Of a DNA stretch of 30,058 bases, positions 17,978 through 24,615 are shown in pieces. Origin of the DNA: a virus; IMG/VR virus record IMGVR_UViG_3300012003_000013, positions 1 to 30,058 of that record, one strand, 5' to 3'. Under the pieces are notes generated by a model. It was given only the letters and a program-made list of their open reading frames with translations. It was not told where the DNA came from and made no database searches. Positions within the stretch are counted from its first letter, which is position 1; every line of letters begins with the position of its first letter. The position numbers and the translations under genes are program-made.

Positions 17978-19228
17978 CTAGGTGATAGCGCTGGGCGCGT
18001 CGATGTAGCGCATACGCATGGTCACGTCCGGGGGCAGCGTCGAAACGAAGTTGACGTTGTATCCCGAGCTCCCGGCGATCATGCCCACGGGGTCGGCGAC
18101 CGTGCCGTCCCGCAGTCCGTAGCGGTTCGTGATCATCTTCAGGTTCTGGCGGCGGCCATCGCCGAAGCCCTGCTCTTTGCCCAGGCTGATCGTGATCAGG
18201 CCGTCGTCGCCAAAGATGTACGTCCGGTAGGCCGTCACGCCCGCGTGGCCGAGATAGGTCTGGGTGATGGTCACGAGGCTGGACTCGTACCACGTCACGC
18301 CGGCCAGGTCGATCACTTCGATCTCCTCGCCGTCCGTGTCTCCGGGCAGCTCCTCCAGCTTCATCTGCCCCTCAATGGTGTGCTTGAGGATGTCGGTGAA
18401 GCTGTTGTTGGTGTTGTCATTGAGCAGGTCGCCCCACGGGAAGCTGTGCATGATGCCGCAGAACTTCTGGTTTTCCATGGGCATGATGTTGCGGCCGCGC
18501 ATCGACGCCACCGCCGTGGTGATGTTGTTCTTCGACAGCGGCACGGTGTAGACGTTCTCGATCGCAACACTCGCGTCGATGTTGGAAGCTCCATCCGCCG
18601 TGTTCTTCGCCAGCGTCGATAAAGACAGCGCCAGCCGGTAGGACATCTCTTCCGCGCCATTCTCCAGCGCCGGGTCGATGGCCGTCTGCAGGCTCAGCCG
18701 CGAGTAGTTGATGTAGTCCGCGTAGTTGCCGATGGTGGACTGGTTGGTGAGCACCGTGATCACGATGCCGCTCCCTACCGTTCCCTCTGCGGCCTGGCTG
18801 ATGTTCGCGCCAAACGGTTCATACATGAACAGCACGTTGTTCACGCCGGAATTTTCCGGCAGCTCTCGACGGCTGCTCACCCGGATATAGGGCGTGTTGG
18901 CCTTGAGGTTCTTGATGAACTTGTTGTCGTAGTGGTTCACCAGCGACTGCGGCAGGTTGCCCGTGTTCATGCTGCTGGGGCTATAGCCTGCGGCGAAGTG
19001 CGCTTGCTGCGCATCCGTGGTGCAGGCGAAGGCGATGTAGATGCCCTGGGCTACGCTCAGCGAATGTTTCGCAACCGTGATGGCGAGCGCTTCCGCCGTC
19101 ACCATCAGCATCAGAAAATAGATGGTCAGGCTGCGGAGGAGAAAGAGTGCGGGTTGAATGGTTTGTGCGACCTTCATAGCGACGGGATCGACGCTGCGGT
19201 GCTGCTGGGTGGAAGAAATCCTTTTCAT
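17978..19228 (-). CDS. Major capsid protein, N4gp56-like, with hydrophobic N-terminal extension
   Basis: 416 residues from the ATG at 19228, chosen because AAGGGCGGT lies just upstream; a start at 19273 is also open. From about residue 87 the sequence follows the N4gp56-type capsid pattern: NLPQSLVNHYDNKFIKNLKA, SRRELPENSGV, FGANISQAAEGTVG, then NYADYINYSRLSLQTAIDP and a long helix. The gene lies after a scaffold-like gene and downstream of portal and terminase, as expected. Oddly, residues about 26-71 (for example LFLLRSLTIYFLMLMVTAEA) are strongly hydrophobic, unlike a normal capsid N-terminus. An internal ATG at 18970 would remove them, but no Shine-Dalgarno sequence precedes it. Confidence 0.75.
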   Translation of the reverse strand: MKRISSTQQHRSVDPVAMKVAQTIQPALFLLRSLTIYFLMLMVTAEALAITVAKHSLSVAQGIYIAFACTTDAQQAHFAAGYSPSSMNTGNLPQSLVNHYDNKFIKNLKANTPYIRVSSRRELPENSGVNNVLFMYEPFGANISQAAEGTVGSGIVITVLTNQSTIGNYADYINYSRLSLQTAIDPALENGAEEMSYRLALSLSTLAKNTADGASNIDASVAIENVYTVPLSKNNITTAVASMRGRNIMPMENQKFCGIMHSFPWGDLLNDNTNNSFTDILKHTIEGQMKLEELPGDTDGEEIEVIDLAGVTWYESSLVTITQTYLGHAGVTAYRTYIFGDDGLITISLGKEQGFGDGRRQNLKMITNRYGLRDGTVADPVGMIAGSSGYNVNFVSTLPPDVTMRMRYIDAPSAIT

Positions 19229-19265
19229 GGTGTTACCGCCCTTATATGATTTTTTGCCTTTAGGG

Positions 19266-19282
19266 CGTTTCAATGCGAAACG
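19266..19282. other. Hairpin upstream of capsid gene
   Basis: CGTTTC at 19266-19271 and GAAACG at 19277-19282 form a 6-bp stem with a 5-nt loop in the 73-nt space between the scaffold stop (19302) and the capsid start. It lies about 40 nt before the start codon and could shape capsid mRNA translation or processing. Confidence 0.35.
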
Positions 19283-19301: not shown

Positions 19302-20111
19302 CTACTTACGTGGCCCCAGCGCGTCCATCGCCGCCATAAACCCCGGTTCTTCTTTCAACCTTCGCTCGTACTCTCGTCCGGTCATCGCATCTTTATCAGC
19401 CCAAGTATATTTCTTTTTGCTGGTCGGTGCCGGTGCGGTGCGGCTAATGTCGCCTTCCCGCACCCCGGTTGAAAATGTTGCCATCCGTGGCCTCGCTCCC
19501 GGCACGGGCTGCGCGGCGGGCTCTTCCTCGCCTTCTCCCGCAGGCGTGGCCGGCTTGAAGTCGGCATTGCCCGTGCTCTTGAGCAGGTCCCACGCAATCC
19601 CCATGTTCTTCGCGGTGATGGCCAGTTGGTTGCCCTCAATGTAATTGAAGACTTCCGTCTTGTTTTTGCCGGTGGGGTACCAATCTGGATTCGCGGCCAC
19701 AAATTTGAGGGTCTCTGCAGTCGCCCGCTCCGTCTCTTCCTGCTCGGCCCGCAGATTCTCCCGGCGGGCAAACTCGCTGAGATCGCCAACCTGGGATTCG
19801 AGCAGCCGTTTGACGGCCGCATCGCCCTTGGCTGGGTCGGTAAGGTCGCGGGATAGCTGCATCCGCTCGTCGGCGGTAAGTGGCTTTGGCTCGATGCGGT
19901 TCTCGCCGGTTGCGCGGTCCGGGGTACGTTCTTTCTTGAGCGTGTCGATGGTTCGCGTTGCCGAGACCTGGGCAGTTGCCAGTAGGTCCGCGATTTCTTT
20001 GCGCGTCTTTGCCCGGAAGGTCTGCAGGGGCGACCCATTCTCCGCGTCGAGATCCACAACATATTCGCCCTCATCCGTCTTTTCTCCGTTGTTCCGCCAC
20101 AATACTGCCAT
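19302..20111 (-). CDS. Capsid scaffolding protein, putative
   Basis: 269 residues. It is highly charged and helix-rich with no cysteine, and has a coiled-coil-like centre (FARRENLRAEQEETERATAE) and a long low-complexity Pro/Ala/Glu stretch near residues 195-240. It ends with basic helices (REYERRLKEEPGFMAAMDAL). Scaffolding proteins show this composition and lie directly before the major capsid gene, as here. GGAGAGCACC precedes the ATG. No protease motif was found. Confidence 0.65.
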   Translation of the reverse strand: MAVLWRNNGEKTDEGEYVVDLDAENGSPLQTFRAKTRKEIADLLATAQVSATRTIDTLKKERTPDRATGENRIEPKPLTADERMQLSRDLTDPAKGDAAVKRLLESQVGDLSEFARRENLRAEQEETERATAETLKFVAANPDWYPTGKNKTEVFNYIEGNQLAITAKNMGIAWDLLKSTGNADFKPATPAGEGEEEPAAQPVPGARPRMATFSTGVREGDISRTAPAPTSKKKYTWADKDAMTGREYERRLKEEPGFMAAMDALGPRK

Positions 20112-20692: not shown

Positions 20693-22843
20693 CTACTCCT
20701 CCGGTCCAAGCGCGGCTTCATCGCCCGCGCGTTCGTTGTGCCGCTCGGCGTACTCCATCGGGTCGAGCGCCATGTGGGTGGCAAGGTTCGCCTCGGCCTT
20801 CTGGTCGATCTCGGCGGCTGTTGCCTGGTGCTTTGCCCCGATCTTCGCAATCTCGCCCTGCGACTTCTGCGCTGCCGGGTTGCTGGCCTGCATCGCCTGC
20901 TGCTCCTGCGCGTTCATCTTGCGGATGACCTGACGGCCGTTCTTCCACTCCGTCATCTCGTACACCATCTCCATCATCTCCTTCGCGTCGATCGTCCAAC
21001 CGATGCGGTTCAGCGCGGGCAGAAGCTGCGGGCTCTCAAGGAACTGGATCAGCATGGGCAGAACCTGCGACATCGCCTTCTTCGCCGCCAGGTGCGCTCC
21101 CGCCAGCACTTCAAACTTATCTTCGGAGGCGAGGAAGTTGTCTACGTCGAGCTTGTAATCGTCGCCCATCTCCTGCCCGAGAATCCGGTGGATCTCGGAC
21201 AGCGGCAGACGCTCCTTGTCCATCTCGTCGAGCATCTCGATAAACGGCAGCAGGATGCCGCGAACGAAATGTCCCACCGGGCCTTCAATCTTGGTAGCGT
21301 TGGCGCTGATGATGCCGCCTGCGCCTGTGGCTGTCCGTGCAGCGCTCGAGCCGCCCTTGCCGGGCAAACTCCCCTGCGTAAACGCTTCGTCCGCGCCTGT
21401 GACGCTCTGGGCGTTCTGCCCAGCCTCCTGCAGCACGGCGAAGAGCGACGGGTCAACCCTCGGCTGCTCGACTAGGCTGAAGGCGTCCTTAGCCCCTCGG
21501 CCTACGGGCGCGTCGACGTCGATGATCCCGCCCAGCCGCTGCCGGATCGCCTGGGTCGGCGCGTTGGCGCCGCGATCCCGCACCCACTGCGGGTTGACGA
21601 TGAAGGCCAGCAGGTTCAGGACCGCCTCGATCGTCCCCTTCTCGATGCGCTGATCGTCTCCTGCGAGCCTCCCGACTCCCAGCCCGTACCCGCTGCCGGG
21701 GATGTTCCAGAAGTTCGCGGCGAAGTAGGGAATACGCCCGAGCATGTGTTCTTCGTTGCGGATCAGGACAGTCTTCTCGGTGCCCTCGACCACCAGCACG
21801 GTCTTCACGTAGGTGCGGTCCCACCGCTCCAGCATCTTGACGCCGCGCTCCAGCGGGTCTGCCGTGGTCTGCTCATTGTCTCCCACCGCCGCCGCGGTGC
21901 CGCTGTTGGCGGCCAGCCGCGCCTGCAGGTCGGTGACAGTCTCGGCGTCGCCCTCGTGCTCGAAGAAGTAATCCTTCAGCAGCTCCTCGGAGGGGATGTC
22001 GTAGCCTGCAACCTTCTTCCCGTTGTGGTCGTACATCGCCTGCTCGCGCAACGCGTCCAGGTCGCTGAATGTTGGATAGGTGACTTCCACAACGAACTTC
22101 GCTTTATGCAGCCGGTTGGGATGCTTCCACTTCGGATCGATCAGCACAGTGCCGAGCTCGCACTTCTCGAAGAACGGCTGGCTCCGCGTGAGCGGCACCG
22201 GCGTCACTTCAAACTCGTCACTCTCTTTGGTGTTGATCGTCAGGTCCGGCTGGCCCAGCGGCATCTTGATACTGAGCGGCTGTTTCTTGCGCAGGAACCG
22301 CTTGCGGATCTCGGTCTGCACTTCCCACCCAGCCTTGCAGATGACGGTGCCATGCAGCGTCATCTCCTCCAGCGCATCGACGCAGGTATCCTCGAAGTCG
22401 ATGTTGTCGAGTTGCACGCCGTAGAGAATCTGCTTTGCCTGCGCCGTCTCTTCCGTGGTACTGGGTCGCGGGCGGATCTGGAAGGGTGGCGTCTCGTAGA
22501 AGATCCCGCCCTGCATCGGCTGCACCAGCGAGTTGCAGATGTTGGCGACAGTGAAGCGGCTCACGCTCGCGCCGTCGTTCCACACCCGGTAGGTGCGCGG
22601 AGACTGGTACAGGTTGTTATTCTCCCGCCAGTGCAGCGCCCACTGCTTGTTGTTCAGCCACTCGGCGGCTTTGGCGGCGTCCTGCACCACCAGCTTGCAC
22701 GCGCCATCGTCGGTATACTTCGGGTCGAGCTGCGGCCCTTGCAGCTTCACATCCTCGCGCTCGATCTTGTCGTGCGCGTTGACGCGCTGCGTCGGCAGGT
22801 TCCCGCGCGTCACTCCGTCCTTGCGGTCCATTGGGAAGCTCAT
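20693..22843 (-). CDS. Portal protein
   Basis: 716 residues from ATG 22843, which overlaps the terminase stop as ATGA and has AGGA about 9 nt upstream; the start at 22900 lies inside terminase. Size, order (terminase, portal, scaffold, capsid) and sequence character fit a P22/N4-style portal: WRENNNLYQSP near the start, a central region with QPFFEKCELGTVLIDP and IPYFAANFWNIPGSGYGLGV, long alpha segments such as RGILLPFIEMLDEMDKERLP, and a Gln/Ala-rich helical end. The portal forms the dodecamer at the head vertex through which DNA is packaged and released. Confidence 0.75.
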   Translation of the reverse strand: MSFPMDRKDGVTRGNLPTQRVNAHDKIEREDVKLQGPQLDPKYTDDGACKLVVQDAAKAAEWLNNKQWALHWRENNNLYQSPRTYRVWNDGASVSRFTVANICNSLVQPMQGGIFYETPPFQIRPRPSTTEETAQAKQILYGVQLDNIDFEDTCVDALEEMTLHGTVICKAGWEVQTEIRKRFLRKKQPLSIKMPLGQPDLTINTKESDEFEVTPVPLTRSQPFFEKCELGTVLIDPKWKHPNRLHKAKFVVEVTYPTFSDLDALREQAMYDHNGKKVAGYDIPSEELLKDYFFEHEGDAETVTDLQARLAANSGTAAAVGDNEQTTADPLERGVKMLERWDRTYVKTVLVVEGTEKTVLIRNEEHMLGRIPYFAANFWNIPGSGYGLGVGRLAGDDQRIEKGTIEAVLNLLAFIVNPQWVRDRGANAPTQAIRQRLGGIIDVDAPVGRGAKDAFSLVEQPRVDPSLFAVLQEAGQNAQSVTGADEAFTQGSLPGKGGSSAARTATGAGGIISANATKIEGPVGHFVRGILLPFIEMLDEMDKERLPLSEIHRILGQEMGDDYKLDVDNFLASEDKFEVLAGAHLAAKKAMSQVLPMLIQFLESPQLLPALNRIGWTIDAKEMMEMVYEMTEWKNGRQVIRKMNAQEQQAMQASNPAAQKSQGEIAKIGAKHQATAAEIDQKAEANLATHMALDPMEYAERHNERAGDEAALGPEE

Positions 22844-24615
22844 CCGGTCAGTCCTGGCATCATCTCTTCGAGTCCGTCGTGATTGTGCTGTGGTTCCCAC
22901 TCTACATCAGCGGCCTCTCGTTCTTCTGCGGTAACTTCGGGCGGCATGTTTTCCGGGGCGACATACGAGTTGAAAACGCGGTCGTGCTGTGCCTTGTTCC
23001 GCATCGCCTCCCAGGCCGCGGCATCCTCATAGGTGGAGGCTTCCTGATCTCCAATCAGCTTGGGAAGGGCTGCGCACACGCGGGATACCACATCGGCAAT
23101 CTCCGTCTCGTCGATCATGCCGTAGTGGTAAAGCTGGCGGTGGACTTCGCGGATGATCCGTATCTCGCGGGAGAAAAATAGCCGGTCGGTGGCGAGGATC
23201 GGTTCGCAGCTCTTGATCCGCAGGCCGCGCTCCTTGTCGTCGTTCTGGTAGGGCGTCCATGCGATCGACAGATCCCAACCCTGCCGCAGCGCCTCGTTGC
23301 GGATGGCGGTCTCCTGGAAGCGCGCCCCCGGCGTCTCCTCGATGGAGATCTTGTGGCATCCCTGCCGCTTCGCCATCTTCACGATCTTCAGCGCCTGGGT
23401 GGTCGGTGTCCAGCTTCCCCGCTCCACGTCGACGATGTACATCCGGTTGTCGTGCATCACGCCGCACGCACCCGCTACAATGTCGCTCGCGCCCAGCTCC
23501 AGCCGCCACGCCACATGCACCGTCCCGGTGATGGGCAGCTTCTCTTCGTCAATCGTCGCCGCGAGTAATTTCTCTTTGGGAAAGATCGGTTTGAATCCCC
23601 CCGTCGCCACGTTCATCTGCTGCGTCATGAAGCTGTGCTCATTCTCGTCCCGGCTCTGCATCAGCTTGTCGAAGGGCAGGAACTGCGGAAAGAACAGCTC
23701 CCAGTCGTTCTCCTCCAGCGTCTCGAACAGGTAGCTGTAATCTTCGGCGCGTGCCAGCAGCTTTGGGCGCTCCTTCCACACACGCTCCTTCACCTTCATC
23801 GCAGGCTTCCACATCACCTTGCCGACTTCGGGATTCAGCCGCTCGATCACCAGGCCGTAGACATCCATCGGGCCGTAGCGCGTGCCCGTCATCTCGCGGT
23901 ATCCCCAGCTCATCAGCATCTTTAGGTTGATGAACATGTTGGTTTTCACCTTGTTGATGCCATAGCTGGTCTGCGAGTTGCGGTTGTCCTGGATGTCTTC
24001 GAGCTTGATCACGTCGAAGTGCCAGCCCGACAAGCTGCTCTCGATCGACGTCCCCATGAGTGTAGCGTCGCGGCGGTACTTTTTCCGCGCCGGCGTCACA
24101 AACCAACCCTTCTTCGGCATCTTCGTGATGACGTACTCAGGGAAGAGCAGGTGCAGCGGCTTCGTGTCGCGCTCTGCCAGGCTAAGGAAGTGCCGCGCAA
24201 CCTCTTCCACAAACACATCCGCCAGCGGGCTATCGTCCGTGTTGGCCGCCGTAAGTACGAGCATGGCAATGTCGGGGAAGGCGAGCATCCATTGCACCGC
24301 ATCGACGATGTTGAAGGTGGTTTTGAACGTCCCGCGTGGCATCAGCAGCAACCGCTGCTTCACATCGTCCTGGTCCTGGATGGGTCGCGCCGGATTCTTG
24401 CGCACAAAGAACGCGGCAACCTCTTGATGGGTCTCTTCGGTGATGTTGGGGTAGCACGGCGAGCCGTCCTGCTCAACCAGAACCTTCGTCGCCAGCCAGT
24501 ACAAATCGGTCTGCGCCCGCCAGCGCAGATGATTTTTGTACTCCTCGTCGCGCGTGATGCGAACCAGGTCGATCTCTTCCTCGACGGCCTTACTTTTTGT
24601 CTTTGCCGCCGCCAT
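22840..24615 (-). CDS. terL: Terminase large subunit (packaging ATPase-nuclease)
   Basis: 591 residues. The ATPase Walker A is MPRGTFKTT at 92-100. A Walker B-like WHFDVIKLEDIQDN is at 198-211, with Glu206-Asp207 as acidic residues (LED instead of the more usual DD/DE). The C-terminal nuclease region has LGASDIVAGACG with Asp378, the acidic ISIEET near 424-429, and DETEIADVVSRV near 502-513. It cuts concatemeric DNA and pumps it into the prohead. No separate small subunit is recognised in the window. GAGGGG precedes the start, and the stop overlaps portal. Confidence 0.85.
   Translation of the reverse strand: MAAAKTKSKAVEEEIDLVRITRDEEYKNHLRWRAQTDLYWLATKVLVEQDGSPCYPNITEETHQEVAAFFVRKNPARPIQDQDDVKQRLLLMPRGTFKTTFNIVDAVQWMLAFPDIAMLVLTAANTDDSPLADVFVEEVARHFLSLAERDTKPLHLLFPEYVITKMPKKGWFVTPARKKYRRDATLMGTSIESSLSGWHFDVIKLEDIQDNRNSQTSYGINKVKTNMFINLKMLMSWGYREMTGTRYGPMDVYGLVIERLNPEVGKVMWKPAMKVKERVWKERPKLLARAEDYSYLFETLEENDWELFFPQFLPFDKLMQSRDENEHSFMTQQMNVATGGFKPIFPKEKLLAATIDEEKLPITGTVHVAWRLELGASDIVAGACGVMHDNRMYIVDVERGSWTPTTQALKIVKMAKRQGCHKISIEETPGARFQETAIRNEALRQGWDLSIAWTPYQNDDKERGLRIKSCEPILATDRLFFSREIRIIREVHRQLYHYGMIDETEIADVVSRVCAALPKLIGDQEASTYEDAAAWEAMRNKAQHDRVFNSYVAPENMPPEVTAEEREAADVEWEPQHNHDGLEEMMPGLTG

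Follow-up and report, generated by a model that had tools for sequence, protein, structure and literature searches.

A candidate hydrophobic head-assembly helix ahead of the shell domain of an N4-gp56-like phage capsid protein

Tailed-phage major capsid proteins are usually treated as soluble. The window analyzed here, which is the whole 30,058-nucleotide stretch of the viral record IMGVR_UViG_3300012003_000013, encodes a major capsid protein in which the shell domain starts around residues 81–88 and is preceded by an 80-residue hydrophobic segment. We asked whether this segment is a genuine part of the protein and what it might do. A preliminary description of the locus had offered three possibilities: that the prohead associates with a membrane, that the segment is a leader which is cleaved off, or that it adds a structural arm.

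The capsid gene and the position of its extension

The features of the window that bear on this question are as follows.

complement 19228-17978, minus strand: major capsid protein gene, 416 aa, N4-gp56-like with an HK97 fold
18989..19228, minus strand: N-terminal extension, residues 1-80, with a basic start and a hydrophobic centre; 88 of 148 relatives have an extension at this position
19010..19186, minus strand: single continuous helix modelled by AlphaFold2, residues 15-73
18950..19009, minus strand: low-confidence tether between helix and shell domain, residues 74-93 (pLDDT < 50)
17978..18988, minus strand: HK97-fold shell domain, residues 81-416 plus stop, from profiles and fold alignment
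19240..19243, minus strand: AAGG, a weak ribosome-binding site for the extended start
19302..20111, minus strand: scaffold-like gene, 269 aa, directly upstream of the capsid gene and named from its position
20693..22900, minus strand: SU10-like portal protein (PF23899, E = 4.9e-20)
22840..24615, minus strand: terminase large subunit (phrog_38, E = 2.9e-28)

The terminase and portal genes lie upstream, followed by the scaffold-like gene and then the capsid gene. The product of the scaffold-like gene is not hydrophobic, and no convincing family match was found for it. At the related loci, a scaffold-like gene of 266–451 aa precedes the capsid gene whether or not the extension is present, and a Y..(R/K)(L/I)...P.F-like stretch often recurs at the C-terminal end of its products.

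The frame and coordinates first assigned to the capsid gene were correct, with the ATG at 19228 on the minus strand and residue 87 at 18970. The TIGR04387 profile (N4-gp56 capsid) matched residues 89–356 to profile positions 3–273, in agreement with the earlier placement of an N4gp56-like pattern from about residue 87, but the score (34.5 bits, E = 1.3e-8) fell short of the curated cut-off of 60 bits. By this cut-off the capsid protein is, as judged from its sequence, a divergent N4-gp56 relative and not a TIGR04387 member. A profile without a curated cut-off, phrog_1357 ('major head protein'), matched residues 85–388 (E = 2.2e-10), and the family profile matches on the protein start at residues 85–89.

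Structure prediction, which the preliminary description had proposed, modelled the extension as a long helix ahead of the HK97-fold shell. The AlphaFold2 helix of the window (residues 15–73) had a pLDDT of 71–89 in 10-residue blocks between residues 11 and 70. The model of a relative, L165, contained one helix at residues 7–49, and in both models the helix leads through a low-confidence tether to the shell. The shell model aligned to many HK97-fold capsids, the best being that of cyanopodophage Pan3 (Z = 21.1 over 295 residues). The capsids of Pan3 (9vye), Ralstonia phage GP4 (8h89), cyanophage A4 (9jwb) and N4 (9e99) share the fold (Z = 18.0–21.1), but the long helix of the window has no aligned counterpart in them. 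Alignments with Pan3 and GP4 start at their residue 2, corresponding to window residues 87–88. Capsids whose N-terminal domain is removed or unmodelled align from later residues (HK97 from 108, GTA from 94 and HFTV1 from 114–115), and model residue 88 was aligned with HK97 residue 108 (structure 1ohg). These start points place the extension in the delta-domain slot, ahead of the mature N-arm. HK97 residue 108 lies just after the HK97 cleavage site.

N-terminal domains in the delta slot are known, but the known ones are polar, scaffold-like helices. Like the delta domain of phage HK97 gp5, the extension is N-terminal to the mature N-arm and predicted to be helical. Unlike that domain, it is strongly hydrophobic, is accompanied by a separate scaffold-like gene and goes with no protease match in three families. 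What is new here is a strongly hydrophobic predicted helix in a slot known for delta domains; the shell itself is divergent N4-gp56-like.

Relatives with and without the extension

Relatives were collected in four scans of viral contigs, which yielded 206 loci (L019 twice); these together with Tunturi 3 (L011) and the window copy (L001) made 208. L001 (capsid on the other strand, no match) and L052 and L074 (no usable start) were dropped. Truncated frames and same-contig repeats were then collapsed to 148 non-redundant relatives, among which near-identical sequences and fragments remain, so that the counts are not independent. By the first start calls, 88 of the 148 had an extension of 20 residues or more, mostly 50–56 aa long; the start calls of L003, L101, L151, L172 and L193 were reset by hand after these counts. 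The remaining 60 are core-only, opening directly on the shell domain with an M(A)GYSPAS-like sequence. Long contigs with the extension are mostly ~38–45 kb, and the large core-only clade includes contigs of ~84–99 kb and Tunturi 3. The extension-bearing capsid is common to many uncultured relatives.

When four capsids (window, L165, L082 and L204) were compared by tblastn with 50,697 phage records, the one match with at least 80% coverage was Tunturiibacter phage Tunturi 3. Its major head protein (PP885686.1) is ~48% identical to that of the window in the shell domain, but it lacks the extension, starts MGYTPAG and is encoded in a 97.6 kb genome. Passages of PMC11924767 describe Tunturi 3 as a cultured podovirus with a head of 76.7 nm. 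Weak partial matches were MW202801, in which the annotated capsid start is close to the match, and the unannotated gut records MT835662, MT835607 and MT836150. Two scans of bacterial genome contigs detected no capsid relatives. Group I introns (Rfam RF00028, 73–83 bits, above the gathering score) interrupt the capsid gene of three related phages (L120:7054-7292, L153:6399-6615 and L135:7056-7269), and a below-threshold candidate was seen in a core-only relative (L195:5068-5208).

A core tree was constructed from shell domains only, with the extension excluded, using 135 rows with at least 300 core residues. The extension trait requires 6 changes on this tree (at least 5 by well-supported branches) versus ~43 in shuffles, a count that does not separate gain from loss. 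Extended capsids lie on both sides of the root, which is a midpoint and not an inferred root, so that the extension may be old with several losses. Two cases, L004 and L183, look like clean loss in their sequences. L004 is sister to the window plus L003, and L183 is nested among extended capsids in their clade; in both, the leader and the surroundings of the ribosome site are similar to those of the extended forms, but the protein begins M-A-G-[YF]-S-P. The shell domains of L003 (with the extension) and L004 (without it) are 89% identical, and a coarse ORF comparison of their gene contents found no evident replacement partner in L004. Transfer of the hydrophobic segment into the scaffold-like gene of core-only phages was rejected, as the segment was absent from that gene in L004 (as L014), L018, L156 and L183, and also in L088, L163 and L173.

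The extended start had been credited with a good ribosome site. For the window this is too strong, as AAGG is spaced 11 nt from the start. The nearest relative, L003, has a stronger GAGGT with a spacing of 6 nt, and in L083 AAGGAGGT stands 7 nt from the start. The later ATG of the window is, as had been noted, without any ribosome-site match upstream. GGAG or GAGG occurs 5–16 bases before 58 of the 88 extended starts versus 8% of random positions. No start codon was found within 10 codons of the core boundary in 14 of the 88 extended capsids, and a start codon with a 4-base ribosome-site match was found within that distance in only 16. In general, then, these capsids are unlikely to be made in a short form through internal initiation. 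An inverted repeat (6 bp, 5-base loop) lies at 19266-19282 of the window, 38–54 bases ahead of the capsid start; in L003 and L004 this pattern begins 55 and 62 bases, respectively, ahead of theirs, and these are its only 3 occurrences in 1.52 Mb of related loci, all before capsid starts.

Pooled over 22 pairs that were hand-picked from the tree and not drawn at random, the extension has a pN/pS of 0.40, against 0.11 for the core, which shows purifying selection on the extension, though several-fold weaker than on the shell. The dN/dS of the extension was 0–0.54 in 21 of the 22 pairs and 1.04 in L167–L176. On these sequence comparisons it is well supported that the extension is a translated, conserved and selected N-terminal segment, and the suggestion of an added structural arm stands in this sense.

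Hydrophobicity and kinship of the extensions

About 45 strongly hydrophobic residues had been claimed for the segment, and residues 1–80 indeed contain 43 (AILMFVWC), together with 9 charged residues (D, E, K, R). In Kyte-Doolittle hydropathy over 19 residues, the highest windows score 1.92 (from residue 27) and 1.98 (from residue 34). Among the relatives, the median of the maximum 19-residue hydropathy was 1.76 for extensions versus 1.10 for cores; the extension is the most hydrophobic part of the capsid protein. A hydropathy window of at least 1.6 within the first 60 residues was present in 60 of the 88 capsid extensions versus 22 of 1047 (2.1%) other ORFs of at least 150 aa from the related loci. 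Shuffled extensions had a median maximum of 1.38 and 18% of shuffles reached 1.76; the hydropathy is thus in large part a matter of composition, with a further contribution from clustering. Net charge was more positive before the hydrophobic peak than after it in 76 of 88 extensions.

On a crude insertion-energy scale, group medians of clades W, A, E, C and D were -0.1 to 1.3; signal and transmembrane segments of the same phage scored 0.5 to 1.2, holin-like segments -1.8 and cores 3.7–5.6. Clade B, which accounts for 55 of the 88 extensions, had a poorer score (median 3.6) and a Glu conserved inside the helix. Hydrophobicity in the window and in most clades would allow the putative membrane association raised in the preliminary description, with a weaker fit in the largest clade.

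Hydropathy periodicity in clades B, C and D was 98–100 degrees, which is alpha-helical, with 126 degrees almost as high in clade B. By this pattern and by structure prediction, the extension is predicted to be helical. Extensions of these clades are 76–83% apolar and 4–12% charged; polar positions recur at P-5, P0 and P+3 around a conserved proline, and the common pattern is P-x-h-[EQY]-h-h-x-A-x-G-[SG]. Profile matches across clades reached 2e-6 (C to D), 6e-7 (D to C) and 8e-5 (D to B), compared with 2e-4 to 8e-3 for the best shuffled decoys, and the clade B profile matched clade C only at 0.03 or worse. The window extension is an outlier that the profile of clades B, C and D did not recognise (E = 0.7–2.3), and it shares with the extensions of L003, L005–L007, L009, L187, L008 and L040 that these profiles hardly or never matched them. 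We therefore infer its common ancestry with the others from position and the core tree.

A search of 49,824 six-frame ORFs with the clade B, C and D and pooled profiles detected only capsid frames and no stand-alone or re-fused copies; beyond capsid frames there were two E = 0.0099 matches on the opposite strand, in L040 and L186 (one contig). No Pfam family was found for the seven extensions searched, and no PDB sequence matched the extension at E up to 10. PHROG 6756, a weak match to the L204 extension (E = 0.0028), was seen again in only one of 20 records, that of L202, where it falls in an open frame of 400 aa, and was rejected.

A possible role in head assembly

The presence, selection and position of the extension are well supported, and we infer a membrane role from its properties. 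Our tentative reading, to which we give a probability of about 0.45, is that the extension is a modular hydrophobic, delta-like head-assembly helix that self-associates and/or contacts a membrane. Lying ahead of the mature N-arm, the helix would be on the inner face of the procapsid, by analogy with HK97. It would act during head assembly by associating with copies of itself and/or with the host inner membrane, and it may hold or concentrate capsid subunits, with the shaping of the shell left to a separate scaffold-like protein. Some close relatives with an otherwise same shell domain cleanly lack the extension. For this reading count its occurrence on both sides of the midpoint root, purifying selection, the ribosome sites before extended starts, the cross-clade profile matches, the helical periodicity and apolar make-up, the insertion scores outside clade B, the charge distribution and the alignment with HK97 residue 108. 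Counting against it, L004, L183 and the cultured Tunturi 3 manage without the helix, a separate scaffold-like gene is present in either case, shuffling points to composition, and the window extension is unmatched by the B/C/D profile. The extension is probably membrane-active or self-associating. Hydrophobicity, the basic start and scores near those of same-phage signal and transmembrane segments argue for a membrane; the conserved Glu and poorer insertion score of clade B argue against it, as does the fact that a single N-in membrane helix would put the shell domain in the periplasm.

The alternative that survives best, although we consider it doubtful, is a delta-like bundle of protein only, in which the helices would pack together beneath each capsomer within the procapsid, out of any contact with lipid. 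The delta-domain position, helical periodicity, conserved Pro, small and polar positions and the clade B Glu are consistent with such a bundle, but an apolar fraction of 76–83% with 4–12% charged residues is high for a soluble one. Further, the scaffold-like neighbours offered no hydrophobic partner segment at 16 of 17 loci (maximum Kyte-Doolittle value 0.36–0.98; 1.86 in L029). Between membrane contact and a purely protein bundle, the membrane seems a little more likely.

A cleaved leader fared worse: its host signal-peptidase version was weakened and its phage-protease version found no support. Removal of a propeptide by a phage prohead protease, on the model of HK97, would suit the delta-domain position, but the prohead-protease families PF04586, PF01343 and PF00574 each matched 0 of 20 related records, making this improbable. 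Still less probable is an export-type signal peptide, cut by host signal peptidase to give the mature capsid protein. Sec-like features, namely the basic start and hydrophobic stretch, are present, and a cut near the boundary would leave nearly the N-terminus of core-only relatives. However, A-x-A signal-peptidase motifs occur in 39 of 88 extensions versus 35.0 expected by shuffling, which is the chance level, a conserved motif lies within the hydrophobic part, and export would separate the shell from DNA packaging. A mis-called start, with the true start at the shell domain and the upstream frame serving as leader RNA, would accord with the starts of core-only relatives and the later ATG of the window, but is very improbable and was rejected on account of protein-level selection, the ribosome sites before extended starts and the scarcity of usable starts at the core boundary (none in 14 of 88, ribosome-site-matched in 16).

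Elsewhere in the window, a fibre-like ORF at 1664-3 (minus strand), which runs off the window, has a signal-peptide-like N-terminus, MRSIRSNPLGVWLLAATLLLAGNAAAQQ. Similar starts occur on ORFs of L003, L004, L165, L177 and L196, and these phages may thus commonly export virion-like proteins.

Use of a membrane in head assembly has a parallel in T4, whose prohead initiates at the membrane, but there a separate membrane scaffolding protein works with the connector. Passages of a 2011 review (PMC3185693) state that T4 was the only phage for which proheads had been shown to associate with a membrane, and the portion of PMC11445458 covered here holds nothing on membrane-bound heads. The major coat protein of filamentous phages, pVIII, likewise contains a transmembrane helix and in certain cases a cleaved leader, as described in parts of the same review (PMC3185693), but its fold and virion are unrelated. 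No description of a hydrophobic capsid extension was found in the open-licence PMC literature, as judged by titles and abstract starts.

That a widespread group of uncultured tailed phages anchors capsid subunits in the host membrane through the subunits' own N-terminal helix during assembly is, in our estimate, rather unlikely. If so, an HK97-fold head would be assembled with the help of the inner membrane or of lipid taken into the procapsid, and some lineages would have lost membrane anchoring and made do with purely soluble assembly. A helix that is present or cleanly absent in close relatives offers a natural comparison for membrane-contact assembly of HK97-fold heads, with L003 and L004 as a ready pair, and the same comparison bears on whether delta-like domains need be polar scaffolds.
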